From a virus, in IMG/VR virus record IMGVR_UViG_3300029268_001092, positions 1-28,227 of that record: 28,227 nt of DNA. One strand, 5' to 3'. The notes under the pieces are model-generated. The model did not search any database. It was not told the DNA's origin and saw only the letters and a program-made list of their open reading frames with translations. A program made the position numbers and the translations under genes. Positions 1,508 to 21,261 of this stretch are shown here, piece after piece. Within the stretch, counting starts at the first letter, position 1; each line of letters starts with the position of its first letter.

Positions 1508-2047
1508 TTATAGAATTTTGAACCAAAGATGGCCGGCCGGCTTTGGCCCCGGCTCGGTTTCCGATAGGGTCACTTCATCGCATGCGTTGAGTTGGGTTTT
1601 GATCTCCTCAACGTCGCTTTCTAGGTTGGTTAACCGGATCTGGATATTCAGGATCGAGTTATTTTCGCCGCTGACCGCTTCGAAAATAAAAACGGTGGCC
1701 ATTCCTCCGGTTTTGATTTTTACCGGGACCATTTCCCCGAGATCAGGATCCAGTGCATAGATCGTGTATCGAACCGTGATTTCCAAGGCGCCCATGATGG
1801 CGGTGTCATCAGACGTCAGCGGGTAGGTGTAATAATCGATTGTGGAATCCTCTGGTTTAACAACCGGGACCATTTCGTATGGCCCCAGTGTCACTCCATC
1901 CGCCCGTCGCAGGGTCACGCTGACGACATATTCGGTCGGATCAAAGTCGGAATAAACATCCACCGTCTCACTTTTGTGACTGGTTGCATTCACCGGCGAG
2001 TGTTTGATATCTCTGATCAGACCGTTGTTTCCAAAATATATTTTCAT
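1508..2047 (-). CDS. BppU N-terminal-like baseplate protein (short paralogue)
   Basis: 179 aa; its ATG overlaps the stop of the upstream gene by 4 nt (ATGA), so it is probably translationally coupled. It is homologous to the first part of the neighbouring larger protein: both begin with a K/N-x-IYF segment, then share VYSDFD / IFSDFD, a VTL-x-R-x-DG segment, and a G-x-L-x-ITVRY / ITARY segment, and both continue into a helical linker. This layout resembles the N-terminal domain of Bacillota baseplate upper proteins (BppU_N/DUF2479), which attaches receptor-binding proteins to the baseplate. The C-terminus ends PAGHLWFKIL. The family assignment rests on overall pattern, not a unique motif, so it is moderate. 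Confidence 0.7.
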   Translation of the reverse strand: MKIYFGNNGLIRDIKHSPVNATSHKSETVDVYSDFDPTEYVVSVTLRRADGVTLGPYEMVPVVKPEDSTIDYYTYPLTSDDTAIMGALEITVRYTIYALDPDLGEMVPVKIKTGGMATVFIFEAVSGENNSILNIQIRLTNLESDVEEIKTQLNACDEVTLSETEPGPKPAGHLWFKIL

Positions 2048-3216
2048 ACGTCCAGCTCATAAACTTGGAAGTACCCAATGGAATTGAGGCCAAGGGCCAC
2101 ACTGATGTATTCATTCAGGATCCCGAAATCCAGCCATCCGCCCTCAAACGTGTCGGTGCCGCCATCTTGGTGAAAATCGCCGGCGATGTAATATGTGCCG
2201 TCGAATGGGTCGTGAACAACCGGTTCATCCAGGTGAGATTGAAAGGCCATGCTTGTCAAAAACAGTTCCATGTTGACGGTCATTTTGGTATATGTGATCT
2301 CGCCCGTTCCACCGTTTATGGATTTTTTGAAAACATCAAGATAAATGTTCGGAGATCCCACGATCATCACGCAATAGGTCTTTGTTTGATCCAGGATATA
2401 TGTCCCAGTCCCGTTGAAAACTAAGGTTCCAGGCGGAACGCTTGACGCCGTTGGCGCGACCGTAATGGATGACAGCACAGTCCCGTCGCCCGTTTTCAGT
2501 TTGACGATATTTCCACTTTCGATTGTCAGTTCATGGGCGAAAAGAGCATCCGCTGCAGCTTTCAGATAGTATGCAGCATCATGATCGTGAATGTCGTATT
2601 CCGCAATGTGAGTTGTCAAATCATCCTCGACATGAGTGATTTTCCGATTAATGTTTGCCAAAACGGTGGAGTTCTCGTTGAAAGTTGGCACCGTTTCCGC
2701 CACGCTGGCGACCACCATGGCCGTAGCCTTAATGACCTGGTCGAGGGTTCCGTCGCCATCCACGTCGAAATTTGAGTAGTACCTGGCGGTGATCTGCAGG
2801 GTTCCAGCGACTCCAAGAACGTCGGATCCAAGCACAAAACTGTGCGCTGGCATGGTTGTTCCCGTGGCCGGGTTCAGAACCGCCAGCTCGCGCAAACAGT
2901 CGACTTCGCCAATGATTGCTCCATCAGATCGTTTGAACATCAGCGTGACGTCGTAAACATCCTCGGCCGCAACGTCAAAGTCAGAAAAAATGTAGATCGT
3001 GTCCGCAAGATTGCTGCCAGCGAATAGATCTGTGATTGTGTGTTTTTTTAGCCGGCCATATTCGTTAAAATAAATGTAATTCATGTTTCCTCCTTGATTC
3101 TCCAAAAGCATGGGCTCCGCCATGGTTTCCTCTTTGTCTGCCGGCGATGCCGAATAGATAAGCGTTGCTGCCATCAATGCGAAAAGCAGCATGCACAAAA
3201 GATTTTTGATTTTCAT
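2044..3216 (-). CDS. BppU-like baseplate/tail protein with alternative signal-peptide start
   Basis: The frame is open from an ATG at 3216 (GAGGGG site upstream, 390 aa) and also from an in-frame ATG at 3084 (346 aa), which has a perfect AAGGAGG. The longer form begins with a Sec-type signal sequence: MKIKN, a hydrophobic core to about residue 21, then SAS-PADKEE. The shorter form begins MNYIYFNEYG and aligns with the start of the downstream paralogue, so 3084 is probably the start of the structural protein. After the BppU-like N-terminal domain come a HDHDAAYYLKAAAD segment and a beta-rich C-terminal region of about 170 residues, possibly a receptor-binding or host-interaction domain. It follows the tail hub gene with a GTGA overlap at 3231. 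Baseplate role is inferred from position and paralogy. Confidence 0.75.
   Translation of the reverse strand: MKIKNLLCMLLFALMAATLIYSASPADKEETMAEPMLLENQGGNMNYIYFNEYGRLKKHTITDLFAGSNLADTIYIFSDFDVAAEDVYDVTLMFKRSDGAIIGEVDCLRELAVLNPATGTTMPAHSFVLGSDVLGVAGTLQITARYYSNFDVDGDGTLDQVIKATAMVVASVAETVPTFNENSTVLANINRKITHVEDDLTTHIAEYDIHDHDAAYYLKAAADALFAHELTIESGNIVKLKTGDGTVLSSITVAPTASSVPPGTLVFNGTGTYILDQTKTYCVMIVGSPNIYLDVFKKSINGGTGEITYTKMTVNMELFLTSMAFQSHLDEPVVHDPFDGTYYIAGDFHQDGGTDTFEGGWLDFGILNEYISVALGLNSIGYFQVYELDV
3089..3095 (-). promoter_or_regulatory. Perfect internal ribosome binding site deciding the 3084 start
   Basis: The minus strand reads AAGGAGG followed by AAAC and ATG at 3084, inside the longer reading frame that starts at 3216. 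It is one of the best Shine-Dalgarno matches in the window, and the paralogous downstream gene begins at the equivalent residue. This supports independent initiation of the 346-aa form. Confidence 0.75.
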
Positions 3217-3227
3217 TCTTTGTCCCC

Positions 3228-5621
3228 TCACTTTCTTGATATGGTTAGGTAAATGGCCGTTAAGGCCGGGTTATTGACTCCCAGTAACAAATGGCCGTTT
3301 CCGTCTCCGATCGCCCAACTAATATTGCCAGGCAGATCCTGAACGAATAATTTCTTGGCTGCAATATCGATTTGCGGTGTTAATTCCGTCTGATACCCCT
3401 TGCATTTGGTCAGGTCGTTTTTCCCGTAAGTCTCGGATCCGCTGACCCAGATATACAGGGGCGTATTGTTTTTTCCGAAAAGCAAATTGCTGTACCGGAA
3501 AAAGAATTCTCCGATGACGATGTCCGGGTTGCTCGTTCTCGCTTCCAACTGGTATGAAATTGATATTTTCTGATACCGGCCCTTGTACAAAATGTAGGAT
3601 TTCTCAGCTGAGAATGCCACATCCGTATACGCAACAATCATGTCAGCGGGTACGACCGGCATCGCATTTCCCAGTGTCAACTGGTTCGTGAAGCTCAAGT
3701 CGGCAAGCGAGCTGTGGATGAAACGCATTTTCAAACTGACAAATTCGCCATTGGCATCGCAGTACGGGTTCAGATGGACGTTTTTTCCGCCGATCACTCT
3801 GGATCCCGCCGACAGACCAACGGAGTAATTGTCGTAAAAGCTGAATTGAAAATGCATCGATTTTCCCAGAGCGTTTTTCAAAAGACCCAAGCTGAAGGTT
3901 TTGTATTCCACTGCAGCTGCATCAACAGTCCCGACCAACACCCGATCGACCGGAGTGTCGTCATCAATGGAATTGTCGAAAGTTTGCAGAAAGTAACTGA
4001 CCGCTGGATCGTCCGGAATCAGACCGTCATCCACGGTTTGTGAAACCGAACTCAACTCCAGATACTCCTTAATCAGAACGTCCCGGCTGATGGTGTTCTC
4101 AATCGGAATCTTGTAAAGGTCGCGAGCTCGTGCCAGGCGCGCGCTCATTGTGGCCGAATAGTGCTGCACAAAAACGTAATGAACCGGGATGTAATTGTCA
4201 TAGACGGAATGCTCACTGGTGATAAGCGTGTAATCGTCCGCGATCCGGTCTCCAAGTTCCAGCAGCTCATCTTCCGAGTCTAGGACGGTGTCTCGTTCAA
4301 GTTGCTTATTTCCGAGTTTGTTGGCCATTTGGCGCAAGCTGAGCGAGTACCGGTCCGCATCAATGGCGCTGTCGGTCTGGTTGGAGATCATGGTACTCTT
4401 CGGAACACTGACCGTTTCTTTTCCAACTGAGAAATGCAAATCACGGTATGGGACGTAGGTCATTTGGAAAAGGGCCTTGGTCCAGGTTTCAGCCCCTTGT
4501 GGATAACTGCATCCGGTATAGGTCGCATCCGGATCGTGTTCCGCGATATAGGCGATGGCTGCCGCTTGTGTAAAGAGAAAAAGCACATTTTCAAGTTTCG
4601 TTTGTGACCAAAACATCGGTTTGTAAGTTACCAAAACTCCCACGTCTTTGGATCCGCGCAGGTATGGGATGTGGCCCTCCTGTTCCGGGATCGAAAGGGT
4701 GTCGAAGATCTCTTTTTCCACGAAACGGTCGGAAATATCCTGAATTTGGATCACGGTAAATACTCCTGATCCACCTCCGCCGCTGTAGTGGTTGTACGAG
4801 TACGTGGCCTCGTATTTCACCTTGACCGAAACGATTTGCTCAATCTCGGCGTTGGCTATCAGACGGACATTATTGGTGTCCGCGATGGTCCCAAATACCG
4901 GTTTAAGCAGAGTCCATTCATCAGTGATCGCCCGCCGTTCCTTGGTTTCCGCGTTTTGGACGGACGTCTCATAATCGCTGGCCAGGTATTCCATCGATTG
5001 GCTGGTAATTTTCCCAGTGGCTCGCAGAATCTTAATGTCCGCACTTTGCCGGTTGAGGTCCTGGTACCCAAGGTAGATGGTCCCGAAATCGTCCGAAATG
5101 TCCAGGACGGTCACCCGGCATTTGACCGGTGTCAGCATGGCATCCAGTACCTCGCGCAAAGTGACCTTTTCCGGGAATTTCCATTCCTCGCCGGCGACTC
5201 CGTTTGTCAAGGGGTATAGACCGCCGGAGGTAACGTTGAACGGGAGCTCTTCCCCGGTTTGCAAAAGGACCGCGTGATGTAGGGCTTTGTTGATCTGCTG
5301 AAAGAGCGTGTCGTTCACATTTGTAAAATCGCATGGAGACAGTACGTACCGCTCGAGGACCTTGGTCAGTTCTATCAACGTCAGGGTGATCGTGTACGAC
5401 AGGTCATCACTCTCAGCTCTTGCAATCAGTTGAGAATTGATATTGCCGATGACCATTTTCTGGCCATCAACGATGGCTTGTTCGTACGGCACAAAGTCCG
5501 GTTCGCTGGATGCGGTGTAAATGATCGTCAGAACCTTTAGTTCGTTGTCCAGCGTTTCCCGAAACGTTTTTCCCTGATGAATGTTCGGAATGGTTACGCC
5601 TCGGATAATTAGTTCTGTCAT
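3228..5621 (-). CDS. Tail hub / tail-associated (gp27/Tal-like) structural protein
   Basis: 797 aa, the largest product in the window. The ATG overlaps the previous stop by 4 nt. The N-terminal ~250 residues (MTELIIRGVTIPNI, then strand-rich ERYVLSPCDF and a VTLREVLDAML segment) fit the hub fold of phage tail-associated proteins, where a domain set binds the tail end and a C-terminal part carries host-interaction functions. A glycine linker (SGGGGSG) separates modules near the middle. The last ~250 residues are beta-rich and end with a domain of the kind that binds ligands or neighbouring proteins. No lysozyme, NlpC/P60 or other hydrolase motif is evident. The position directly before two BppU-like genes supports the tail-tip hub. 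No single diagnostic motif was seen. Confidence 0.65.
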   Translation of the reverse strand: MTELIIRGVTIPNIHQGKTFRETLDNELKVLTIIYTASSEPDFVPYEQAIVDGQKMVIGNINSQLIARAESDDLSYTITLTLIELTKVLERYVLSPCDFTNVNDTLFQQINKALHHAVLLQTGEELPFNVTSGGLYPLTNGVAGEEWKFPEKVTLREVLDAMLTPVKCRVTVLDISDDFGTIYLGYQDLNRQSADIKILRATGKITSQSMEYLASDYETSVQNAETKERRAITDEWTLLKPVFGTIADTNNVRLIANAEIEQIVSVKVKYEATYSYNHYSGGGGSGVFTVIQIQDISDRFVEKEIFDTLSIPEQEGHIPYLRGSKDVGVLVTYKPMFWSQTKLENVLFLFTQAAAIAYIAEHDPDATYTGCSYPQGAETWTKALFQMTYVPYRDLHFSVGKETVSVPKSTMISNQTDSAIDADRYSLSLRQMANKLGNKQLERDTVLDSEDELLELGDRIADDYTLITSEHSVYDNYIPVHYVFVQHYSATMSARLARARDLYKIPIENTISRDVLIKEYLELSSVSQTVDDGLIPDDPAVSYFLQTFDNSIDDDTPVDRVLVGTVDAAAVEYKTFSLGLLKNALGKSMHFQFSFYDNYSVGLSAGSRVIGGKNVHLNPYCDANGEFVSLKMRFIHSSLADLSFTNQLTLGNAMPVVPADMIVAYTDVAFSAEKSYILYKGRYQKISISYQLEARTSNPDIVIGEFFFRYSNLLFGKNNTPLYIWVSGSETYGKNDLTKCKGYQTELTPQIDIAAKKLFVQDLPGNISWAIGDGNGHLLLGVNNPALTAIYLTISRK

Positions 5622-6046
5622 CGGCTGCCTCCTGTTGCCAATCCGGTCCGCTCGCGCATGTTAGCCGAAATGGTCTCGGATTTGTCAACGTCAACGTATC
5701 GATTCCCGACTTTTATGGCAATACTTCCGATGGCCACAACCGCTCCGAGCGGGCTTGAAAGTCCCATCGCTATCAGTCCGCCAATCTCCACGCCCTCGCT
5801 TATGTTGGCTTGGGCGATGTAGTCTCCGGTCAGGTTTCCATAATTGCTGGTGACATAGCTGATGGCTTGCTTTTTCAAATGAGTGGCAATCGCCTTGGCG
5901 GTCCCGCCCTCTTTGGTTGATTTTTTGACCATGGCATCGGCGGTTTCTTTTGGGCTGGCCGGAGTTCCCGGTTCAGTCGCGGCCCCATCGATCTGTTCGA
6001 GCCCAACAACAGTGTTTGTGACCTTGATGTGGTATTCTTTTTTCAT
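5618..6046 (-). CDS. Small Gly/Ala-rich tail-region protein, function unknown
   Basis: 142 aa with a GAGGT ribosome binding site. The first 30 residues are polar and Thr/Pro-rich. The middle is helical and basic (KKSTKEGGTAKAIATHLKKQ), followed by a Gly/Ala-rich hydrophobic stretch (about residues 82-112, containing GGLIAMGLSS and GAVVAIGSIAIKVG) that could insert in or cross a membrane. It sits where siphophages place the tape measure (between neck/tail genes and the hub) but is far too short to be one. A role as a small pilot or membrane-penetrating protein is a guess. Overlap with the hub gene by 4 nt implies co-translation. Confidence 0.7.
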   Translation of the reverse strand: MKKEYHIKVTNTVVGLEQIDGAATEPGTPASPKETADAMVKKSTKEGGTAKAIATHLKKQAISYVTSNYGNLTGDYIAQANISEGVEIGGLIAMGLSSPLGAVVAIGSIAIKVGNRYVDVDKSETISANMRERTGLATGGSR

Positions 6047-7610: not shown

Positions 7611-8045
7611 TCATCCCCAATACCGGCGCCGGTCGTTATAGCTGTTGCTGCCGATTGATTGCATTCCCCGGTACTGCAACCCAGCATCCGTCAGAATGTC
7701 CAGCGCAAGCTTGCTGAACGCCCGTTTACGGATCTCGTCGATCGGAAGCACCGCATTGTTCACCGGGTCCATTCCGCCCATGATGAACATGTCGTAGTTT
7801 TCGATCATGTAATATGCCTGTTCCAGCATCGCATCCCAGATGGCCGTTATTTGCGGTGCTTCCAGTTCGGATTCAACATAACCCGGACAGGCATGTTTGA
7901 TTTGTTGATAAACGATCAACTCCACCCGGTTGATGAATATTTTTGCTCGATCGCCATCCCCCCTAAGGTAGGAGCAGTTGGCTAGATCAATTCCGGTTTT
8001 TTCTCGAAAATCTTGTTGGAAGGTCTCAATTTCTGTATCTGTCAT
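7611..8045 (-). CDS. Head-tail connector / adaptor protein (gp6/gp15-like)
   Basis: 144 aa, with an AGGAGG site 5 nt before the ATG, first gene after the capsid terminator-like hairpin. The helix-rich composition, with a central helix rich in Ile/Leu/Tyr (RVELIVYQQIKHA; AMLEQAYYMIENYDMF) and a basic C-terminus (YNDRRRYWG), matches the adaptor proteins that dock under the portal (HK97 gp6, SPP1 gp15). Synteny is exact: the first small gene after the major capsid gene. The family call is inferred. Confidence 0.65.
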   Translation of the reverse strand: MTDTEIETFQQDFREKTGIDLANCSYLRGDGDRAKIFINRVELIVYQQIKHACPGYVESELEAPQITAIWDAMLEQAYYMIENYDMFIMGGMDPVNNAVLPIDEIRKRAFSKLALDILTDAGLQYRGMQSIGSNSYNDRRRYWG

Positions 8046-8108: not shown

Positions 8109-9224
8109 TCAGTCTGCGTTCCAAACTGCGGTGATGGTCACAACGTTGCCCGGCATAACATAGTTAAAGCCGGCCGAGTAGAGATGGGTCCCGTCGCTCC
8201 AACCAACGAATGTGTAACCGGTCTTGGTGAATGGATTTGCCGGCAATACGAATTCGCCATCAGGCGCGGTAGCCGCTTGAGTCGGAAGGGTTCCGGTTCC
8301 GCCGCCATTCGCGAAAGTGACCGCGTAGGTGGTGGCAGCAGTGGTTTTGAAAACGTAAATCGCACGGGTGAGTTCTGGATAAACAAATTGGTCGTGTTTC
8401 AAGCCGATGTCCGCTTGGAGTTTTCTCCCGCCATGGCCTGGGATTTTGTCAAAGATGACGGTCTCTTGGTACTTGTTCCAAGCTGGTGCCGCATCCTTAT
8501 GAACCAAAATCGCCTGGACTCCGGTCGGGAAGAACCGTTCAGGAACGGCTTTCAGTTTGCACCGGTCGATCATTTCGACGGTGATGTCCATGTTGCCGTT
8601 CCAATTGCCGAGAGCCCAATAGCCCTTAGCAACAGCGGCTTCCTTGGCGATCGCTTTGGTCCCGGATTTGATGTACAGGATCCACGCGCCGTCATCGATC
8701 AACGCATCATCCAAACGGGATTCTGCGTGCAAAATTTCAGCAACAAAGTTGTCCTTGGTTAAGGTCAGCATCTTGCAATAAATGTTGGCAGTGCCAACGA
8801 TCTTTCCAAAACGATAGGTGTCAACCGCTGGTGCCTGGATCTTTTTCATGTAACGGTTGGCGAAACGAACGATTCCGTTTCCCAGCGCATCCTGGTCGGC
8901 GATCTTCTCAACGGAGATGCTGTTACCGATGTCCTGGGTCAGTGTCAAGGTTTCCCAAGTTGTGTGGACGTCCATCTGGGTATACCCGGCCGAGAACGAA
9001 TAGGTTCCAGGAACTAGGCTACCAAATTGGATTTTCTGGTATTTGATCGTGTTCGCACCGTCGAATTCTCCGGATTCATCCAGGAGGTCGGCGGTGTACA
9101 GAAACCCGATCAGCGTTCGCTCAAGCTCTTCCGGTTCGGAGATGTAACGGATTGCATCATCGAGGGTGCTGGCGAAAAATTGAAAAGTGATCGCATTGAT
9201 CACAAGTGCCAATAATTTTCTCAT
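8109..9224 (-). CDS. Major capsid protein with Prp-type leader and C-terminal InlB-repeat-like domain
   Basis: 371 aa, with a good AAAGGAG site. It directly follows the GP20-type scaffold gene, the standard place for an HK97-fold major capsid protein. Residues 1-17 form a basic-hydrophobic leader ending TFQFF, followed by AS; this closely matches the LQFF/AS cleavage site of Bacillota L27 ribosomal precursors and the leader of the phage 80alpha capsid protein. Residues ~18-298 are the capsid core. Residues 300-371 form a separate domain (AVTFANGGGTGTLP, then TKTGYTFVGWSDGTHLY, ending in TAVW) typical of the InlB B-repeat/Flg_new family of bacterial surface proteins. Cleavage would leave 354 residues. 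Capsid identity rests on synteny and size. Confidence 0.85.
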   Translation of the reverse strand: MRKLLALVINAITFQFFASTLDDAIRYISEPEELERTLIGFLYTADLLDESGEFDGANTIKYQKIQFGSLVPGTYSFSAGYTQMDVHTTWETLTLTQDIGNSISVEKIADQDALGNGIVRFANRYMKKIQAPAVDTYRFGKIVGTANIYCKMLTLTKDNFVAEILHAESRLDDALIDDGAWILYIKSGTKAIAKEAAVAKGYWALGNWNGNMDITVEMIDRCKLKAVPERFFPTGVQAILVHKDAAPAWNKYQETVIFDKIPGHGGRKLQADIGLKHDQFVYPELTRAIYVFKTTAATTYAVTFANGGGTGTLPTQAATAPDGEFVLPANPFTKTGYTFVGWSDGTHLYSAGFNYVMPGNVVTITAVWNAD

Positions 9225-9242
9225 AATTGCTCCTTTTGCTTT

Positions 9243-9854
9243 TTAAGATATTTTTCTGAATTTTGCAAAGTTGTCTTCGGTGGAGTTAGGGGTCTTGTTC
9301 GGTTCGTTCGGATTTTTCCCGAGTTTGTTTTTGGAATTGTCCGGGGTGTTGAACAGGTAGGCGTGCGAGTCTTTCAGAGTTTTAATCTGATCATCGAGCC
9401 CCTGGACCTTGCCGTCCTTGAGTTCGGCTTTGTCCAAGAAATCCTTCAAATGAGCCTTTACTGCAATCAAATCCTTTGCTCCAATGTTAGGTTCCGACAG
9501 ATGTTTCTCAATGGTGTCGGCCCGATCGCGAGCTGCGAGCTTGGCATCATATTCAGCCTTTGCCGTAGCGTTTTGCGTTTTGAGTGTTTCGATCTGACGA
9601 GTGAGTTCCTCCGAATTCCCTTTGAATTTCCCGAGTTCGGCGATCTGAGCATCCCGCGCAGTTACAAGGCCTTTGCTGTCCTTGAGCTGGTTGTTGATCT
9701 CATCAAATACCGATTTCGGGATTAGTTTTTCCTCAGCCGGGTTGATGACAAATCCGGCGGCTTTCGTGTTGATCTGCGTGACTAGCTCTTGGCCTAATAG
9801 ATCGGTTAGGGCCTTAAGCTTGGCTTCTGACAGAACGTTTTTCAAAAAATCCAT
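9243..9854 (-). CDS. Capsid scaffolding protein, Phage_GP20 family
   Basis: 203 aa from the ATG at 9854, chosen because AAGGAG lies 6 nt upstream; the frame extends to 9929 but without a site. The sequence follows the GP20/scaffold family closely: an N-terminal helix (MDFLKNVLSEAKLKALTDLL), an IPKSVFDEINNQLKDSK segment, a long coiled coil with the typical LTRQIETLKTQNATAKAEYD pattern, an AVKAHLKDFLD segment, then GLDDQIKTLKDSHAYLF and a low-complexity Asn/Pro tail. These proteins form the internal core on which the capsid assembles and are then removed. No FF/A-type cleavage motif is seen near its N-terminus, unlike the capsid protein. Confidence 0.85.
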   Translation of the reverse strand: MDFLKNVLSEAKLKALTDLLGQELVTQINTKAAGFVINPAEEKLIPKSVFDEINNQLKDSKGLVTARDAQIAELGKFKGNSEELTRQIETLKTQNATAKAEYDAKLAARDRADTIEKHLSEPNIGAKDLIAVKAHLKDFLDKAELKDGKVQGLDDQIKTLKDSHAYLFNTPDNSKNKLGKNPNEPNKTPNSTEDNFAKFRKIS

Positions 9855-9985: not shown

Positions 9986-10333
9986 TTATCCGTTTAAGCC
10001 CATTGTTGGTTGTTTTGATTGTGGCACTACCATGATCCTGAATACCTGCAGATATTTCGGGTTCTCCGCAGCAAGGCTTTTGAGCACTTCGGCGGTGACC
10101 GCAATCACGTTTTTGGCGGTTAGTGTCGCCCCTCCCTGTTCGAGCTTCAGCCCGATGAAAGGAATTTTTGGATCGGTTTCAATTTTGAACTTGGCTTTTT
10201 CTTTCTGCAACAGGCCGCCTGCCATTTTGAAAGCACATGAGATCGCGGCACAAACAATATCGCCACCGGGTGCTGCATAACAGCTGTGCCCGGCCGCGGT
10301 GATTTCGTACGTGGTGTATTTTATAGTCGTCAT
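9986..10333 (-). CDS. prp: Ribosomal-processing cysteine protease Prp (YsxB family) homologue, capsid protease candidate
   Basis: 115 aa from the ATG at 10333, which follows a strong GAGGAGG site; the frame extends upstream to 10447 but only inside the minor capsid gene. The N-terminus has the family signature: G-H-S-x-Y-A at residues 15-20, then GGDIVCAAIS at 23-32. This places the catalytic-type His16 and Cys28 12 residues apart, the same spacing as His22/Cys34 in Staphylococcus aureus Prp. Length is close to bacterial Prp (about 106-110 aa). Cellular Prp removes the N-terminal extension of L27. Here the gene sits between minor capsid and scaffold genes, and the capsid protein two genes on carries a Prp-like site, so it most likely matures the capsid. 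Confidence 0.85.
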   Translation of the reverse strand: MTTIKYTTYEITAAGHSCYAAPGGDIVCAAISCAFKMAGGLLQKEKAKFKIETDPKIPFIGLKLEQGGATLTAKNVIAVTAEVLKSLAAENPKYLQVFRIMVVPQSKQPTMGLNG

Positions 10334-11433
10334 TCGTCCTCCTCGTTGTAATATGTCTCGCTGTCGCTGACAATGGTCCGCCAGGCGTAGAAGGCTCGGC
10401 CCATCTTCAGTGAGAATTGTTTGTACTCGTTGGTCATCAATCGCCATTCGAGGCGCAAGGTCCGTGCCGACTCAGGATCGCCGCTGGCTCGCAAGATCGC
10501 TTCCTCAGTTTTCATTTCCCGGATGTTGTTCTCGTAGTCCCGTTGGCGCTGGTCGATGGCATATTCCCGTTTGATCTGCTGCCGTGTGTACTCGGTCGGG
10601 GCCTGGGATCCGTCCGTGTAGGCTACCGCTCGGTGCCGGCAATTGAACCCGTTCAGAATGGAGTTTCCATTGTGCAGATCCAGGGCATCCTGCAAATACG
10701 TGTACGGGATCCCGTTATGAACCCCGGTTTTGTCGTTCGGGTTCAAGCTGTAGAGCTTCCCCTGATAGGGCGCACATCTTGGGCTGGCATCTGGATGGCT
10801 TGTGATCCACACGTAATCGACTCCGGCCGATTGTAAATTCTGAAGGTCGGTCATGTTGGCTTGGTGCCGGACGGTCATTTCCGCCCGGTTTCGCAAACTC
10901 ATGGTGTATGTGTATCCCGCTCGCCCAGTCTCTTCGTTTTCAGAGACGGTCACGATTTTGGGCGGCTCCGCTGCTAGAGCTTTCAGAGCAACCTTCAGCT
11001 TCCGGTTGTAATCGTCAATCACGGCCAGTCCCTTTTGGCTTTCTGCCAGGTATGGCCGGACCGCACTCAGTCGGATTCCTTCAATGTTTGCTAGCAACGC
11101 TGCAACGGATCCGGTGTACACTCCGCTTTCGAACTTGCTCACCTTGGCCGCCAAGTTCCGGTTCAGGATCCTAATCGAGGTGCTGAGTTGGTAGTACCAT
11201 TTCCGGCTTGAGGTGACCAGGGCTTTCCGGGTCTCTTCTCGCAACACCGGGTTGGTGATCTGCTCGCACGTTTCCGCGATCGCTTTGTTAAGCCCTGCGA
11301 CGATCTCCTCCTGAGCCTTGTTTTCCATTAGGCCCTCGGTGATGATGACCTTGATACGGGTGGTTGCGGAACTGATCAAAATCAGAACCTTTTGGGCCAC
11401 GTTCTCCTTTGGGCTGCTAACGCTAAGTTGCAT
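10330..11433 (-). CDS. Phage minor capsid protein 2 family protein
   Basis: 367 aa, starting at an ATG preceded by a weak GGGGG site; a later in-frame Met at residue 36 is possible. The helical N-terminal half is followed by the diagnostic central block: YTYTMSLRNRAEMTVRHQA, WITSHPDASPRCAPYQGKLYSL, an IPYT segment and NGFNCRHRAV, which match the Phage_min_cap2 family (A118/SPP1-gp7-like). These proteins sit inside the head, bind the portal and may leave with the DNA. The C-terminal ~90 residues are helical and charged. The order portal, minor capsid, protease, scaffold, capsid is standard. It overlaps the protease gene by 4 nt. Confidence 0.85.
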   Translation of the reverse strand: MQLSVSSPKENVAQKVLILISSATTRIKVIITEGLMENKAQEEIVAGLNKAIAETCEQITNPVLREETRKALVTSSRKWYYQLSTSIRILNRNLAAKVSKFESGVYTGSVAALLANIEGIRLSAVRPYLAESQKGLAVIDDYNRKLKVALKALAAEPPKIVTVSENEETGRAGYTYTMSLRNRAEMTVRHQANMTDLQNLQSAGVDYVWITSHPDASPRCAPYQGKLYSLNPNDKTGVHNGIPYTYLQDALDLHNGNSILNGFNCRHRAVAYTDGSQAPTEYTRQQIKREYAIDQRQRDYENNIREMKTEEAILRASGDPESARTLRLEWRLMTNEYKQFSLKMGRAFYAWRTIVSDSETYYNEEDE

Positions 11434-11443
11434 GAGTTACCCC

Positions 11444-13252
11444 CTAGGTCTGGCCTTGTTCGAGTTCCTGTTTCTTTTTGGCCTCTTCTTCCTCTTTGGC
11501 TTTGTCTTCGGCTTCCTTGGCTAGTCGTTCCTCTTCCTGTTTTTTCGAATCAACAAAGCCGGTTAGGTCGGGAAGGTTGTTTGGGTTGTCAAGGCTCATC
11601 CCGTCCTCAAATCTGATTAGGTTCACCTCTTCATCGACCTGGTCTTTGTCCCAGTCTGGATGGATCTGTCTGATAGCCTCGTGTGTACTGGCCACTCTTG
11701 CTGTTTTGGCAGCGCCCCAGGTGGTGATCTTTTCGGAGATCCGCTCGATGATGTAATCTCCGAACTCGATGTCCACGTCGATTTTCTCATTCGTCAGATC
11801 GATCCAGTTTTCGTTTTCCGGTTTAACCAAACCCTGACGGATCATCCAGTTGTACAGTTGGATCCCCATTCGGATGACCTGTTCCGAGAATGGTTTCCAA
11901 AGCTTGAGCTTTTGCGAACGCGTTTCAAGGGTGGCTTTATTTCGCTCAATTTGGCTGTCAGCTGCGGCATTGACACTCTCCAGCCCTGTTATGCCAAGGG
12001 CTACCGGGCTTAATCCTGTGTTGTTTATGGCGGTCGTTAAGGCGGTCCGGTACTTGATCAAATCCGACTCGGACTTGTCCGGGATCACCTGGATCCTGAT
12101 CTCGTTCTTGGCGTTTTGATCGTTGTCTCCCTCGACCTGGACATAGTTGTTAACGAAGTCGTCCGGGAGCAATGGCTCCATTTTTCCGGTGTCTTCGTTG
12201 TACCAAGTTGGGACCATGTTTTTCGGAATGTAGCGCTTGGTCATGTTCTCCCGGAGTTCCGCGATCAGCCGGCTGTAGGCCTCGTCCAATCCGTCGAAGC
12301 TGTCCATGTTGCCCTCGTAATCGCTTGCTCCGTATGGGCTGTCCGGGAACTCGTGGCTCGGAGTCATGTTGGGCTTGTCAAAGGCTAGCATGCCCTTGAT
12401 GCCCGTGTACACGAACTCGCCGTCATCATTCAGAATCGGTTTTGGGTTCCCGTCCTCGTCGGTTGAAAACATGACGGCCTGGCCCTCTGGGATGGTGTCC
12501 AAAGCAACCCGTGTTTGCTCGCCATTATTTTTAACGTTGTAAAGTTCATATCGGATCAGCGCATCGCCATCGGCGTTGGTCGTGTAGACCTCGTCCATGC
12601 GATAGTGCTCTTTTCCTGAGTCATACCAATACGCGAATGTGATGGCGGTGGTGATCCCCCTCTCCTTGGTAGCTCGCCCGCGCTTGATGTCGGCGGTTTC
12701 AAAGATTGGGAACTTTTTCAAGCTGATGTCGTGCGACCATTTTGCGAAAAGATGCCCGCCCCAAGACTCGTTCTGTGCCCCGCATTTGAAATTATCGGGG
12801 AGGTTGGCCTCTTTCACGATGGTGTCGACTATAGCTTGTGCCGGATCGGTTTTTTCTTCGTCCTTTTTTCCGTCCTTATCCAGGACCTGAATGAGGGGTT
12901 GGAATCCGCTGGCAAACAGGATCGTTCCCATTTTTTTGGAGATCAGGCCGGGGATCCCGCAGTGCAACATTCGTGCATTGGATGGCGCTTTGTACCAAAA
13001 GTAGTTCATGTTCTCCTTCTTGTTGGTTCCCAAGTACATTCGCCGGATCAGACGGGAGTTCCCCATAAACCAAACCTGGTACTCACAAATTCGCCTTGTG
13101 AAATCCTCGGTGCTGCCCCCGGTGTCGATCTTCAGGGCGAACCGTGGATCAAAATTTATTGTGTTTTTGTCTGTTAGCATGTTGATGCCCTCCTGCAATT
13201 TCTTTAGCCATCTAGCGTTTTTCCACTCTTTGAATTTATCAAAAATGCTCAT
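11444..13252 (-). CDS. Portal protein (SPP1/A118-like)
   Basis: 602 aa. The product has the length and order expected of a phage portal: an N-terminal helical lead, then TRRICEYQVWFMGNSRLIRRMY, a central block containing YDSGKEHYRMDEVY (typical of SPP1_Gp6-like portals), FPDSPYGASDYEGNMDSFDGLDEAYSRL, and a helical stem followed by a Glu/Lys-rich tail. Twelve copies form the ring at the unique vertex, through which DNA enters under the power of TerL. It begins shortly after the terminase gene, with CAGGAGG 11 nt before the ATG. The Lys/Glu-rich C-terminal ~40 residues are low complexity. Confidence 0.9.
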   Translation of the reverse strand: MSIFDKFKEWKNARWLKKLQEGINMLTDKNTINFDPRFALKIDTGGSTEDFTRRICEYQVWFMGNSRLIRRMYLGTNKKENMNYFWYKAPSNARMLHCGIPGLISKKMGTILFASGFQPLIQVLDKDGKKDEEKTDPAQAIVDTIVKEANLPDNFKCGAQNESWGGHLFAKWSHDISLKKFPIFETADIKRGRATKERGITTAITFAYWYDSGKEHYRMDEVYTTNADGDALIRYELYNVKNNGEQTRVALDTIPEGQAVMFSTDEDGNPKPILNDDGEFVYTGIKGMLAFDKPNMTPSHEFPDSPYGASDYEGNMDSFDGLDEAYSRLIAELRENMTKRYIPKNMVPTWYNEDTGKMEPLLPDDFVNNYVQVEGDNDQNAKNEIRIQVIPDKSESDLIKYRTALTTAINNTGLSPVALGITGLESVNAAADSQIERNKATLETRSQKLKLWKPFSEQVIRMGIQLYNWMIRQGLVKPENENWIDLTNEKIDVDIEFGDYIIERISEKITTWGAAKTARVASTHEAIRQIHPDWDKDQVDEEVNLIRFEDGMSLDNPNNLPDLTGFVDSKKQEEERLAKEAEDKAKEEEEAKKKQELEQGQT

Positions 13253-13255
13253 GTT

Positions 13256-14659
13256 CTATGCTGCCTCCTGTTTGAACGCACTCATCATCTTGTGCATATG
13301 TCTTGTCCAGCTGTATTCCGTTGCATCGATCTTGTCATTGTGCGGTTCGTTCTTGTCTTCACGTTCCTGGCCTTTTTTGCCCTCGGCCCACTTGGCCATC
13401 TTGAACGCATCGTAGCAGTCACGACCTTCCCGAGTGTCATTGAAAATGCACCGACCGCTAGAGAATAGGATGATCCCCATGTCGATCCGCTCTTTGATCG
13501 TGGCTTTGAACGACGGGATGATCGGCGGTAGTTTGAGCGCCCGGAAGGTGGTTGATATGTCGCTGATGAAGTTGGCTTCGGCGGAGTCGATGGAGATGTA
13601 CTCAATGTTCGCTCCCCGAGCCAGCCACATGCGAACAAACGCAATGAGCCGCTCTTTCTTGTTTTCATAGCCCAGTTGCTGAAAGGTCACTTTGTCAATA
13701 AAGGCCGTGTTGTAGTAGTCCAGGCTGAACCCCTGGAGGTTGAACGAGTTCTGGGCTCGGCTGGCTCCAATGTCGCATCCGACTACGCAATGGGGGTATT
13801 TCCGGAGGTCGACCGGTTTGATCAGTTTGTCCGGGTCCATGTAATCCAGATAAATCAGTTCTCCTGGTGATCCTCGTTCTCCGAGGACCTTGATGGTGTA
13901 GTAGTATGATCCGACCGGGAATACCTCCATGGTTCGAGCTATCTTCGCGGGGGTCATGATCGGATTGTCCGTGAAGGTAAAATGAACGTAGAACCAACCC
14001 GGTTCCTTCTTGACTTTGTCCATGTCCGCGAGAATGCTGGCCGGTGTCGTAGCCCGGTATTTTTTCATTACGTTGCACCGGTTGATGTAGTCCTGGTAGA
14101 CCCAAAGCTCCGGTATGTCGCCGTTCAGTGTCCAGATCTGCAGAGGCCGGTCAACGCTGCCTTGTCGCGCGAAACATTCATCAACGAACAGCTTGTCAGC
14201 GGTGTTGACCTCGTCGATCAGGATCACTCCGAGACTCTTTCCCAGGACCTTCTTCCATTTCGATTTGGTCGAGTACCCGGCTAAAAGAATCTTTTTTTCT
14301 TTCGGGTAAACGTTTGGGATTCGAGAGTGCAACAGCAGAAAATAGCTTCCTAGTTTTTCCCTGACTAGCTCAAGATCCGGAAACATGGCTAAGAGCCCGT
14401 GCTCGCCGTCTAGGATGTTGTCTCGGATGGCATCCAAGTCATTCCCGGCTATCAGGTGCAGTTCCTCGTTCGAGGCTGCCACGTTCATGTGAAAAATCGG
14501 TTTGGCATCCTCGGTCTTTGAGGACCGGATGGAGCCTTCAAACACAAGCAGGTTGCAATACGGTTTTAGCGACAGGGCCGCAACATCCAGGTACTTATCG
14601 GTGATGATGAACTGCGATCTGTCGATCGAGGCGAAACTCTCAGATGCTGCCATTGTCAT
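13256..14659 (-). CDS. terL: Terminase large subunit
   Basis: 467 aa from the ATG at 14659 (GGAGG 9 nt upstream); an ATG at 14668 and upstream in-frame starts are also possible. N-terminal ATPase: a Walker A-type loop GSIRSSKT at residues 42-49 (an SK variant seen in many phage terminases), and Walker B VILIDEVN at 145-152, with E150 as the likely catalytic carboxylate. C-terminal RNase H-like nuclease: candidate acidic residues D296 (VVGCDIGAS), D358 (ISIDSAE) and D444 (DKIDATEY). It packages phage DNA into the prohead through the portal. The start overlaps the TerS gene by 20 nt, giving coupled synthesis of both subunits. Confidence 0.93.
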   Translation of the reverse strand: MTMAASESFASIDRSQFIITDKYLDVAALSLKPYCNLLVFEGSIRSSKTEDAKPIFHMNVAASNEELHLIAGNDLDAIRDNILDGEHGLLAMFPDLELVREKLGSYFLLLHSRIPNVYPKEKKILLAGYSTKSKWKKVLGKSLGVILIDEVNTADKLFVDECFARQGSVDRPLQIWTLNGDIPELWVYQDYINRCNVMKKYRATTPASILADMDKVKKEPGWFYVHFTFTDNPIMTPAKIARTMEVFPVGSYYYTIKVLGERGSPGELIYLDYMDPDKLIKPVDLRKYPHCVVGCDIGASRAQNSFNLQGFSLDYYNTAFIDKVTFQQLGYENKKERLIAFVRMWLARGANIEYISIDSAEANFISDISTTFRALKLPPIIPSFKATIKERIDMGIILFSSGRCIFNDTREGRDCYDAFKMAKWAEGKKGQEREDKNEPHNDKIDATEYSWTRHMHKMMSAFKQEAA

Positions 14660-15143
14660 GGTTGTCATCCTCCGGGGTTTCTCCCTTTTCTTCGTCCACC
14701 ACTTCGGCTTCGACGATGTTGTCCGCATCCTCGGCTATTTGGTGTCTGCGTAGAGCTTCGATGGTGTCGTTCATGATCTGGTTGTTGATCTCGTGGCTGA
14801 CCTCCTGCCCTTCCGAGCTAGAGAGACGGACCACTTCCAGGATGGCGTTAAAGGCCTTTGTATCCCCGCGCAGCGCTTTTTGAATTTGGGCTACGACCAT
14901 GGCCGACAGCACCTCAATGTTCGTGCCGGGAATTCCCTCGTAGTTCTTGGGGAGTTTGGCGGCCCCGTGGTACATTGGCATGTGGAGGTAGTGCTGCACC
15001 AGCATGCGCATGTCACGCTGTTTTCGTTTGGCCTCAACGCTCTTTTTACCGGCTAAGGACCGGGTTTCGCGGGGTGGCTCAGCAAGGAGATTAGGATACT
15101 TTTCTTGGCGCTTTGGTTCCAAGGTGAACACCCCACTCGTCAC
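14640..15143 (-). CDS. terS: Terminase small subunit-like protein
   Basis: 167 aa from a GTG at 15143, the only start giving the whole conserved N-terminus; a TTG at residue 8 or a start within the frame near residue 20 cannot be excluded. The N-terminus has a DUF5681-like segment (NLLAEPPRETRSLAGKKSV) followed by RRM-like helical residues (MRMLVQHYLHMP), then a central helical block with KALRGDTKAFNAILEVV, the pattern of small terminase proteins in many Bacillota phages, and an acidic tail. It recognises packaging sites on the DNA and directs TerL. Its last 20 nt overlap the terL start, and it sits directly before terL. Confidence 0.75.
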   Translation of the reverse strand: MTSGVFTLEPKRQEKYPNLLAEPPRETRSLAGKKSVEAKRKQRDMRMLVQHYLHMPMYHGAAKLPKNYEGIPGTNIEVLSAMVVAQIQKALRGDTKAFNAILEVVRLSSSEGQEVSHEINNQIMNDTIEALRRHQIAEDADNIVEAEVVDEEKGETPEDDNHDNGSI

Positions 15144-15270: not shown

Positions 15271-16629
15271 TTATGGCCGAGGGGCCTGTAGACCCGTTAT
15301 ATCGGCGTATTTAGTCTGTATTCCATCTCGTATAATATATATATTATCTCGGTCATTTGTGAGTTTTATGTAACGATTTACGATGACATCGACGTATTTT
15401 TGATCGATTTCCATCATGTAACAAGTCCGCTTGAGTTGCTCCGCAGCCATCAGCGTAGAGCCGGATCCGCCGAATATATCCAGGACCAACTCAGAACGCT
15501 TGCTCGAGTTGATGATCAGATTTGCAAGCAGGTTGAGCGGCTTCATGGTCGGGTGCTCTGCGGATCGCCCAGGCTTGTTCACGTGGATGACGGAAACCGG
15601 GACTAGTTCCGAATGAATCAGATCCAAGAGCTGAATGAGATCCTCTTTTTTCATTTTCGTAAAGTCCCGCGGTTCGTCTTCGATGAGGGTGGAAACCGTT
15701 CGGTCGTTGACGAAACTGTGGGGACCGCCTTCTTTCCAGCCGTAGAGACATGGCTCGTGTTTCCATTGGTAGTCCTGGCGCCCAAGCACGATGCTGTTCT
15801 TGCACCAGATGAGCTGCTGACGGGTCTTGAGATTGTTTTGGCGAAGCGCGGTTTCGAACTCGTAGACCGTGATACTCGCGTGCCAAATGTAAAAGGCCGC
15901 CCCTGGCTTCATTACCGCGTTCATGTTTTTAAAGGCCTTGTCCAGAAAATCAATAAACTCCAGTTCCGGCATGTAATCGTTCTGGATGTGCCGGTCACTG
16001 AACCTGTACCCATATTTATTTATAGCATCGGCTTTGCTCCCGTAATCTACGTTGTAAGGCGGGTCGGTGACGACTAGGTCCGCTGCCTGGTTGTCCATGA
16101 GCTGCTTCACGTTTTCTTCGATGGTGGAATCCGCACACATTACCCGGTGTTTCCCAAGAAGCCAAATGTCTCCGGTTTTCGAGACCGCCGGTTTTTTGAG
16201 CTCCGCATCGATGTCAAAGTTGTCCTCTTGTACGTCGTGGACCCCGATCAGATCCCGGAGCTCTTTTTCGGAAAACCCGAAGTCTTCAAAGTTGAAGAGA
16301 TCCTTCAGGTCTGCCAGCTCGCCGGTCAGTAACGGGAAGTCCCATCTGGCCAGTTCCGATAGCTTGTTGTCCGCGATCCGAAAGGCCTTGATCTGCTTTT
16401 CCGTCAGATCATCAGCTACGATGCAGGGCACCGTTTCGAGGCTTAATATGATGGCAGCCTTGTATCGCGTGTGGCCACAAATGATGACGTTGCGTGGGTC
16501 AAGCAGAATGGGATTTTTGAACCCAAATTCCTTGATGGATCGCGCTACAGCATCAACCGCATGGTCGTTCTTCCGGGGGTTTTTGTTGTAGGGGATGATC
16601 TCTGATAATGGCTTGTTGACTATGTTCAT
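15271..16629 (-). CDS. ParB-like nuclease domain fused to DNA adenine-type methyltransferase
   Basis: 452 aa; the first gene of the late operon, with a GAGGAG site upstream. Residues 1-105 form a ParB/Spo0J N-terminal domain, with GHTR at 52-55 in the ParB motif. Residues ~150-440 form a DNA methyltransferase: the DPPY catalytic motif at 189-192 and the SAM-binding motif DIFGGSGST at 384-392. Catalytic before SAM motif gives the beta-class order, and DPPY suggests N6-adenine. Such fusions commonly lie next to terminase genes in Bacillota phages and may mark DNA at packaging or protect it against restriction. No cognate restriction enzyme is visible. The target site cannot be told. Confidence 0.9.
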   Translation of the reverse strand: MNIVNKPLSEIIPYNKNPRKNDHAVDAVARSIKEFGFKNPILLDPRNVIICGHTRYKAAIILSLETVPCIVADDLTEKQIKAFRIADNKLSELARWDFPLLTGELADLKDLFNFEDFGFSEKELRDLIGVHDVQEDNFDIDAELKKPAVSKTGDIWLLGKHRVMCADSTIEENVKQLMDNQAADLVVTDPPYNVDYGSKADAINKYGYRFSDRHIQNDYMPELEFIDFLDKAFKNMNAVMKPGAAFYIWHASITVYEFETALRQNNLKTRQQLIWCKNSIVLGRQDYQWKHEPCLYGWKEGGPHSFVNDRTVSTLIEDEPRDFTKMKKEDLIQLLDLIHSELVPVSVIHVNKPGRSAEHPTMKPLNLLANLIINSSKRSELVLDIFGGSGSTLMAAEQLKRTCYMMEIDQKYVDVIVNRYIKLTNDRDNIYIIRDGIQTKYADITGLQAPRP

Positions 16630-20271: not shown

Positions 20272-21261
20272 TTAATTTTCCCCGTCAAAAATGCTGATCT
20301 GAAGGGGTTTTGCAAGATCGACGTTGCGAATCCGGTATGCTTCATCGATGCGCATTTCAGTCATCGCGATGTATTCCTCGTTTAGGTCTATTCCTACAAA
20401 ATTTCGCCCGAGTTTTTTGGTGACCACTCCGGTTGTCCCGCTTCCCATGAAAATATCAAGCACGATTCCGTTCTCTGGGCAACACGCTTTTATTGGCATT
20501 TCCACAAGTTTTTCTGGAAATACTGCGAAGTGGGCGCCCTTGAATGGCTTTGTTGAAATCGTCCAAACACAACGAGCGTTTCTCATTAGGTCGTCGCTTG
20601 GCATGTACCGAGCATTGAAGCCCGTATAATCGTTTCTGCCGACCATGTCTTGCTTTCTTAAACCACTATTTTTATTCCCAATGACCGCTTTGCTTCCTCT
20701 TGGTGGAGTCAAGTCTTTTGTTTTCATCGGCACTTTTTGTTGCTCAAAATAATAGCTGTGGCTTTTTACAAAGAAAAACATTTTCTCGAAATTGACTGTA
20801 AACCTATCTTTAGCACTTGACGGCATGCAATTTGGTTTGTGCCAGATTATTTCATTTCGAAGAATCCACCCGCGATCCGTCATCATTATCGCAAATCGGT
20901 TAGGGATTTGAAGAAGGCATTTCTTTGGGAGTTCCGCTCGTTTGTGAATGTTTATTGAGGAGTCCTTCAGGTAGCCCCCAACTTTATTGTCGGTCTTCCC
21001 GTTTTTATCTCCTGAATAAGTGTCCCCCAAAACTACCCAACAACTTCCGAACGGTTTCAGGATCCTTTTTACCTCATCAAAAATTGCAATCAAATTGTCC
21101 AAATATTCCTGGAAAGTTGGTTCCAACCCGATTTGGCCTTCAACTCCGTAATCTCGAAGAGCATAATACGGGGGGCTCGTGATGACCATATCAACGGCTT
21201 CATCTGGGAATGTTTTCAGAACCGTCAGCGTGTCGCCTTGGTAGATTTTGTTTAGATCCAT
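20272..21261 (-). CDS. Site-specific DNA methyltransferase (SPPY type)
   Basis: 329 aa beginning MDLNKIYQGDTLTVLKTFPD, the usual start of the family. The catalytic motif TSPPY lies at residues 28-32 and the SAM-binding motif DIFMGSGTTG at 269-278, the beta-class order. SPPY is most often seen in N4-cytosine enzymes but also occurs in some N6-adenine ones, so the modified base is uncertain. There is no restriction enzyme beside it. It is probably an orphan enzyme that protects phage DNA from host restriction or regulates it. It overlaps the HNH gene by 62 nt, which is unusual. Confidence 0.88.
   Translation of the reverse strand: MDLNKIYQGDTLTVLKTFPDEAVDMVITSPPYYALRDYGVEGQIGLEPTFQEYLDNLIAIFDEVKRILKPFGSCWVVLGDTYSGDKNGKTDNKVGGYLKDSSINIHKRAELPKKCLLQIPNRFAIMMTDRGWILRNEIIWHKPNCMPSSAKDRFTVNFEKMFFFVKSHSYYFEQQKVPMKTKDLTPPRGSKAVIGNKNSGLRKQDMVGRNDYTGFNARYMPSDDLMRNARCVWTISTKPFKGAHFAVFPEKLVEMPIKACCPENGIVLDIFMGSGTTGVVTKKLGRNFVGIDLNEEYIAMTEMRIDEAYRIRNVDLAKPLQISIFDGEN

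Follow-up and report, generated by a model that had tools for sequence, protein, structure and literature searches.

An InlB B-repeat domain at the C-terminus of the major capsid protein of a tailed phage

The accessory domains known from phage heads are mainly of Ig-like fold. The phi29 major capsid protein (MCP) carries an Ig-like domain for which horizontal transfer is the thought origin (PMC11476376); Ig-like domains of phages promote contact with mucus-producing cells and, the T7-like phage K1F displays proteins fused to 10B, its extended minor capsid product (both PMC13370021). Known members of the InlB B-repeat/Flg_new family are located on cell-surface proteins, in internalins and in putative fibrillar proteins for example (PMC8900821, PMC9210967). 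Flg_new has been described as a stalk domain of one such putative fibrillar protein (PMC9210967), and has been linked to gut-associated or gut-adapted surface proteins (PMC9723798). The B-repeat fold is beta-grasp-like without the helix, and strand beta-2 of InlB is a proposed sticky patch (both PMC8900821). A literature search, mostly of open-access papers, found no description of a B-repeat on a phage major capsid protein; judged by title and abstract, none of the papers on the two Pfam families dealt with phage capsids.

The window analysed here, i.e. the whole 28,227-base stretch of virus record IMGVR_UViG_3300029268_001092, codes a phage structural module on its minus strand, which runs from the large terminase and the portal through the minor capsid protein, the scaffold and the MCP to the connectors and the tail. 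The same gene order is found in two other phages, L094 (a contig assigned to an Acholeplasmatales bin from goat rumen) and L174 (a contig in IMG/VR); the order in the window and this synteny both place the MCP gene between the scaffold and connector genes. The features of the module used below are as follows.

13256..14728, minus strand: terminase large subunit (weak profile match to phrog_5653, E 0.003; 53% to L094 and L174).
11444..13252, minus strand: portal protein (phrog_533, E 1.2e-51; 49% to L094, 47% to L174).
10330..11433, minus strand: minor capsid protein, Phage_min_cap2 (PF06152, E 1.2e-21; 42% to L094 and L174).
9243..9854, minus strand: capsid scaffolding protein gene (PF06810, E 2.7e-29, and phrog_194; syntenic in L094 and L174); the true start is perhaps further upstream.
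9230..9235, minus strand: ribosome-binding site AAGGAG, 5′ of the MCP start, read from the sequence.
8109..9224, minus strand: MCP gene, whose 371-aa product has an HK97-fold core and an InlB B-repeat at its C-terminus (Pfam and PHROG profiles, predicted structure).
8337..9224, minus strand: HK97-fold MCP core, residues 1–296 (PHROG 422, ends of relatives, predicted structure).
8328..8345, minus strand: linker TTAATT, residues 294–299, near-identical in the alignment of all three extension-bearing phages.
8109..8327, minus strand: InlB B-repeat, residues 300–371 plus stop codon (PF09479, PF18998, predicted fold).
7611..8045, minus strand: probable head-tail connector, the gene directly 3′ of the MCP (45% to the gene in the corresponding position of L094 and 41% to that of L174; phrog_541 matches weakly, E 0.12).

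Elsewhere in the window, two DNA methyltransferase genes (PF01555) lie at 15274–16629 (with a ParB N-terminal domain) and 20275–21261. The first ~49 residues of the ORF at 2044–3231 resemble a membrane or signal segment; the remainder can be aligned with a tail-region protein found in L094 and L174, and residue 50 may be where the protein truly starts.

The MCP gene lies directly after the Phage_scaffold gene. PHROG 422 (major head protein) matches residues 41–296 of its product, covering profile positions 22–295 of 297 (E 1.4e-27), and Foldseek searches with the predicted MCP returned HK97-fold capsid proteins and encapsulins; the MCP identity assigned in the initial annotation is borne out by these three results. 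Amongst solved structures, the nearest to the core by profile is T7 gp10A. In the full-length structure prediction, which was built with 76 MCP sequences, the core has pLDDT values mostly above 85, lower at the N-terminus and around residues 200–210 and 260–270. The extension in this model is all beta with pLDDT of about 50–77, so its orientation and its placement relative to the shell are of low confidence.

The segment beyond the core matches two Pfam B-repeat profiles. Within the whole MCP, PF09479 (Flg_new) covers residues 300–360 (E 3e-7; 30.9 bits, where the gathering score is 27) and PF18998 (Divergent InlB B-repeat) residues 300–370 (E 1.3e-5, 25.5 bits against 23.6); for the 75-aa segment alone the values are E 6.5e-9 and 36.2 bits for PF09479, and E 4.8e-7 and 30.1 bits for PF18998. 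The PHROG and Pfam boundaries meet without overlap and, because the two parts abut, the B-repeat is an addition to a complete core and is separate from the HK97 fold.

Modelled by itself with AF2, from an alignment of 56 rows, the domain is all beta with a pLDDT of 94.2 and a pTM of 0.81, and the predicted fold of the extension is beta-grasp-like without a helix. Among solved structures, this model best matches the B-repeat of InlB and the B-repeat-like domain found in a Treponema denticola sialidase. The top Foldseek match is 2y5p (TM-score 0.68), and a VIA comparison with this InlB B-repeat structure gave a Z of 8.4 over 69 residues at 2.5 Å. Farther matches are the MucBP and SHIRT domains of surface proteins (Z about 4–5), a similarity which may reflect a shared arrangement only. 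Viral proteins in BFVD have the same domain fold, with TM-scores of about 0.8 over the domain; none of the 50 BFVD matches listed is named as a capsid protein, the best being named tail, uncharacterised or internalin-like.

The initial annotation had placed a stand-alone InlB B-repeat/Flg_new domain at residues 300–371, proposing an HMM search against PF09479 and naming two outcomes that would tell against it, namely no domain match or a segment that is part of the HK97 core. The search is significant, with Pfam matches above the gathering scores and a predicted B-repeat fold in agreement with the family assignment; the segment starts only after the HK97 core is complete and is predicted to fold by itself. 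Residues 300–371 of this minus-strand ORF do correspond to 8109–8327, and the sequence motifs that had been cited occur literally in the MCP translation.

The B-repeat is coded in the zero frame of an MCP gene that has the ribosome-binding site AAGGAG. The junction of core and extension lacks a canonical −1 slippery heptamer, the sole one found in the gene being GGGAAAC at codon 114, far upstream; a domain reached only by programmed frameshifting is rejected on the combination of zero frame and absent junction heptamer. From the frame, the ribosome-binding site and the lack of a junction heptamer it follows that each full-length MCP copy should carry the B-repeat, and thus, judging from the gene sequence, every subunit of the shell probably does so.

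About 220 relatives of the MCP were collected using alignments, for which single-sequence queries were insufficient; single-sequence scans of viral contigs, with the window MCP or the domain as query, confirmed no relative. Nearly all of the relatives stop at the end of the core, those from viral and genome contigs with 0–15 extra residues, and the named phages that do so are Listeria P35 and P40, Lactococcus 1358, Streptococcus Javan and Stenotrophomonas TPWB-10. A homologous extension is present in two phages, L094 and L174. The window extension is about 52% identical to theirs, compared with 48–49% for the core, a similar level of conservation. In both L094 and L174 the GYTFVGW hallmark is degenerate, and the L094 extension gives no PF09479 or PF18998 match over the gathering score. 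A profile search for an MCP of the window's family found none in 28 viral contigs that bear B-repeats. The sole domain match among phage records, MT835874.1 (L008 747–6227), is a long subtilase-like protein with B-repeats and no MCP; given the nature of this protein, the record is probably bacterial DNA filed as phage. Separately, the MCP at L004 2426–3250 (MK044828.1) is annotated as a carbohydrate-binding family V/XII protein, which is probably a misannotation.

These relatives bear directly on whether the extension could have arisen from misassembly or misbinning, or could be a piece of the HK97 core that happens to resemble a B-repeat. The window is a single viral record, which leaves room for such an error, but two further assemblies have the homologous extension together with a syntenic module, the core profile is complete without the segment, and the segment is predicted to fold alone as a B-repeat. 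Since the homologous extension occurs in two other, independent assemblies (L094 and L174), we reject an artefact and consider it extremely improbable; conservation in these two phages likewise upholds the extension as a real feature, as it had been described from the window.

In the MCP tree, the window phage, L094 and L174 form one group with full SH-aLRT support, and their neighbours are two MCPs (L010 and L011) that lack an extension. The tree comes from a quick search in which L242, L267 and L099 are long branches of unsure position. Because the sister MCPs are without the extension a single gain is probable and, on this sequence comparison, the extension was probably acquired once, in the ancestor of the window phage, L094 and L174.

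Other MCPs of the same family end in different additions. That of L099 (745–1809) has a C-terminal Fn3-associated/chitobiase domain (PF13287, E 3.1e-10; PF13290, E 1e-9), that of L168 (2965–4173) a C-terminal extension of ~100 residues with a weak S-layer-like match, and those of L242 (1207–2391) and L267 (967–2217) C-terminal extensions of ~100 residues that Pfam does not recognise. This variety is relevant to the proposal that the B-repeat is a built-in cement, contacting neighbouring capsomers and stabilising the expanded head as separate decoration proteins do. Such a role would fit one in-frame copy per MCP subunit, an extension conserved as well as the core, and the fact that L094 and L174 have lost the canonical surface hallmark; moreover, no decoration gene is recognised between the MCP and the connectors, the next gene starting 63 nt past the MCP stop. 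However, nearly all relatives, the sister MCPs L010 and L011 included, make heads without the extension, and the presence of different domains at the same MCP site does not point to a single, fixed contact within the lattice. The short linker and the independent fold in the prediction also argue against a cement, and we consider it unlikely, although deserving of some weight.

Among the 28 viral contigs with B-repeats, single copies are also found on other virion proteins. In L300, both the major tail protein (4868–5656; phrog_88) and a small protein coded right after the MCP (2767–3219) end in one B-repeat; Lactobacillus phage major tail proteins match the L300 tail protein only up to residue 187. 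In L296, a head protein (140–727; phrog_939) ends in one B-repeat. Being found on the MCP and on tail and head proteins, B-repeats seem to be add-on modules of virions, as Ig-like domains are.

The recurrence of single B-repeats in other phages, on their tail and head proteins, and the sporadic presence of several unrelated domains at the same MCP site, would also be expected if the domain were a passenger, i.e. a promiscuous surface module picked up by an abundant virion protein with little harm and without specific function. Against this stands the pattern of substitution between L094 and L174: of 80 codons in the extension, 2 differ non-synonymously and 13 synonymously (dN 0.014, dS 0.29), whilst the core has a higher dN of 0.108 with a dS of 0.72. 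For this pair, the extension is under purifying selection, with a dN/dS of about 0.05. In addition, the extension has persisted while this pair and the window phage diverged to about 49% protein identity. A functionless passenger is accordingly, in our view, quite improbable.

Bacteria of the order to which the L094 bin belongs are rich in the domain: PF09479 matches occur in 57 of 61 sampled genomes of the order, at 3 to >80 matches each, and number 68 in the L094 bin itself, against none in 14 control genomes. Because PF09479 is so abundant there, the donor was probably a surface protein of such bacteria, and the counts suggest the cell-surface proteins of this order as the source of the domain. 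The bin assignment of the L094 contig may be wrong. The G+C content is 48.3% for the window and 50% for the window MCP core, compared with about 35% for the MCP genes of L094 and L174, and given this difference the window phage may have its host in another lineage.

We propose that the MCP of a tailed phage gained one InlB B-repeat at its C-terminus, in frame and hence on all subunits, and that this would have happened once, in the common ancestor of the window phage and its two relatives, most likely from bacterial surface proteins. The small beta-grasp-like unit would probably stand at the outer capsid face, on a short linker and in a dense array, where it would most likely serve accessory attachment through numerous weak contacts, made with glycans or surface proteins either on host cells or in the matrix of the gut or rumen; such contacts would keep virions close to their hosts. 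Outward display is argued from the T7-like and phi29 precedents, and weak multivalent adhesion, by analogy with the Ig-like domains on phages, appears the most likely role. The longest stretch conserved in the extension of all three phages, TQAATA.DGEF, comprises strand beta-2 and its flank, and we infer that this strand corresponds to beta-2 of InlB. The decay of GYTFVGW in L094 and L174, the low-confidence placement of the domain in the full-length model and the difference in G+C content from the L094 and L174 MCP genes are points against this explanation; PF09479 domains, which usually occur in tandem in long surface proteins, may also be mere stalk spacers, and the capsid has one. Taken as a whole, the explanation of a single gain, a bacterial surface donor, outward display and weak multivalent adhesion is one that we regard as reasonably probable.

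A bolder extension of the adhesion proposal is that capsid B-repeats dock like-with-like on B-repeats of the host surface (those of the L094 bin's order), gathering virions before the tail contacts its receptor, and that B-repeats, on heads and on tails, would join Ig-like domains as another widespread class of display domain in virions; this we would call a long shot. The occurrence of a capsid B-repeat in three phages, echoed on tail and head proteins, suggests that gut and rumen phages take up host-surface domains, and the system permits a direct test of whether display domains serve adhesion, stability or neither.

The capsid extension described here is an accessory domain, i.e. an extra domain on a complete MCP core, which by profile and predicted fold is a B-repeat and not Ig-like. 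It shares with the InlB B-repeat/Flg_new (PF09479) and PF18998 families their sequence profile and predicted fold, whereas the usual setting of B-repeats is in secreted, cell-attached surface proteins, often in tandem, and here a single copy ends an MCP; the surface-protein and tandem setting is not part of the profile or fold that defines a B-repeat. Listeria P35 and P40, Lactococcus 1358 and the Streptococcus Javan prophages have MCPs of the same PHROG 422 family, with the scaffold gene directly before the MCP, but these proteins are of about 274–303 aa and lack the extension. The proposed role, of many weak contacts between virion and mucus or cells, is like that of T4 Hoc and the Ig-like adhesins of gut phages (PMC13370021), although Hoc is a separate protein of Ig-like domains, whilst the domain here is predicted to be beta-grasp-like and is fused to each MCP. 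With the full-length model as query, phi29 heads rank among the top Foldseek matches, and phi29 gp8, with its Ig-like (BIG2) domain, likewise has an HK97 fold to which a single beta domain, apparently derived from bacterial surfaces, has been added; it differs in having an Ig-like fold rather than a B-repeat, in its podoviral lineage, and in an unrelated acquisition.
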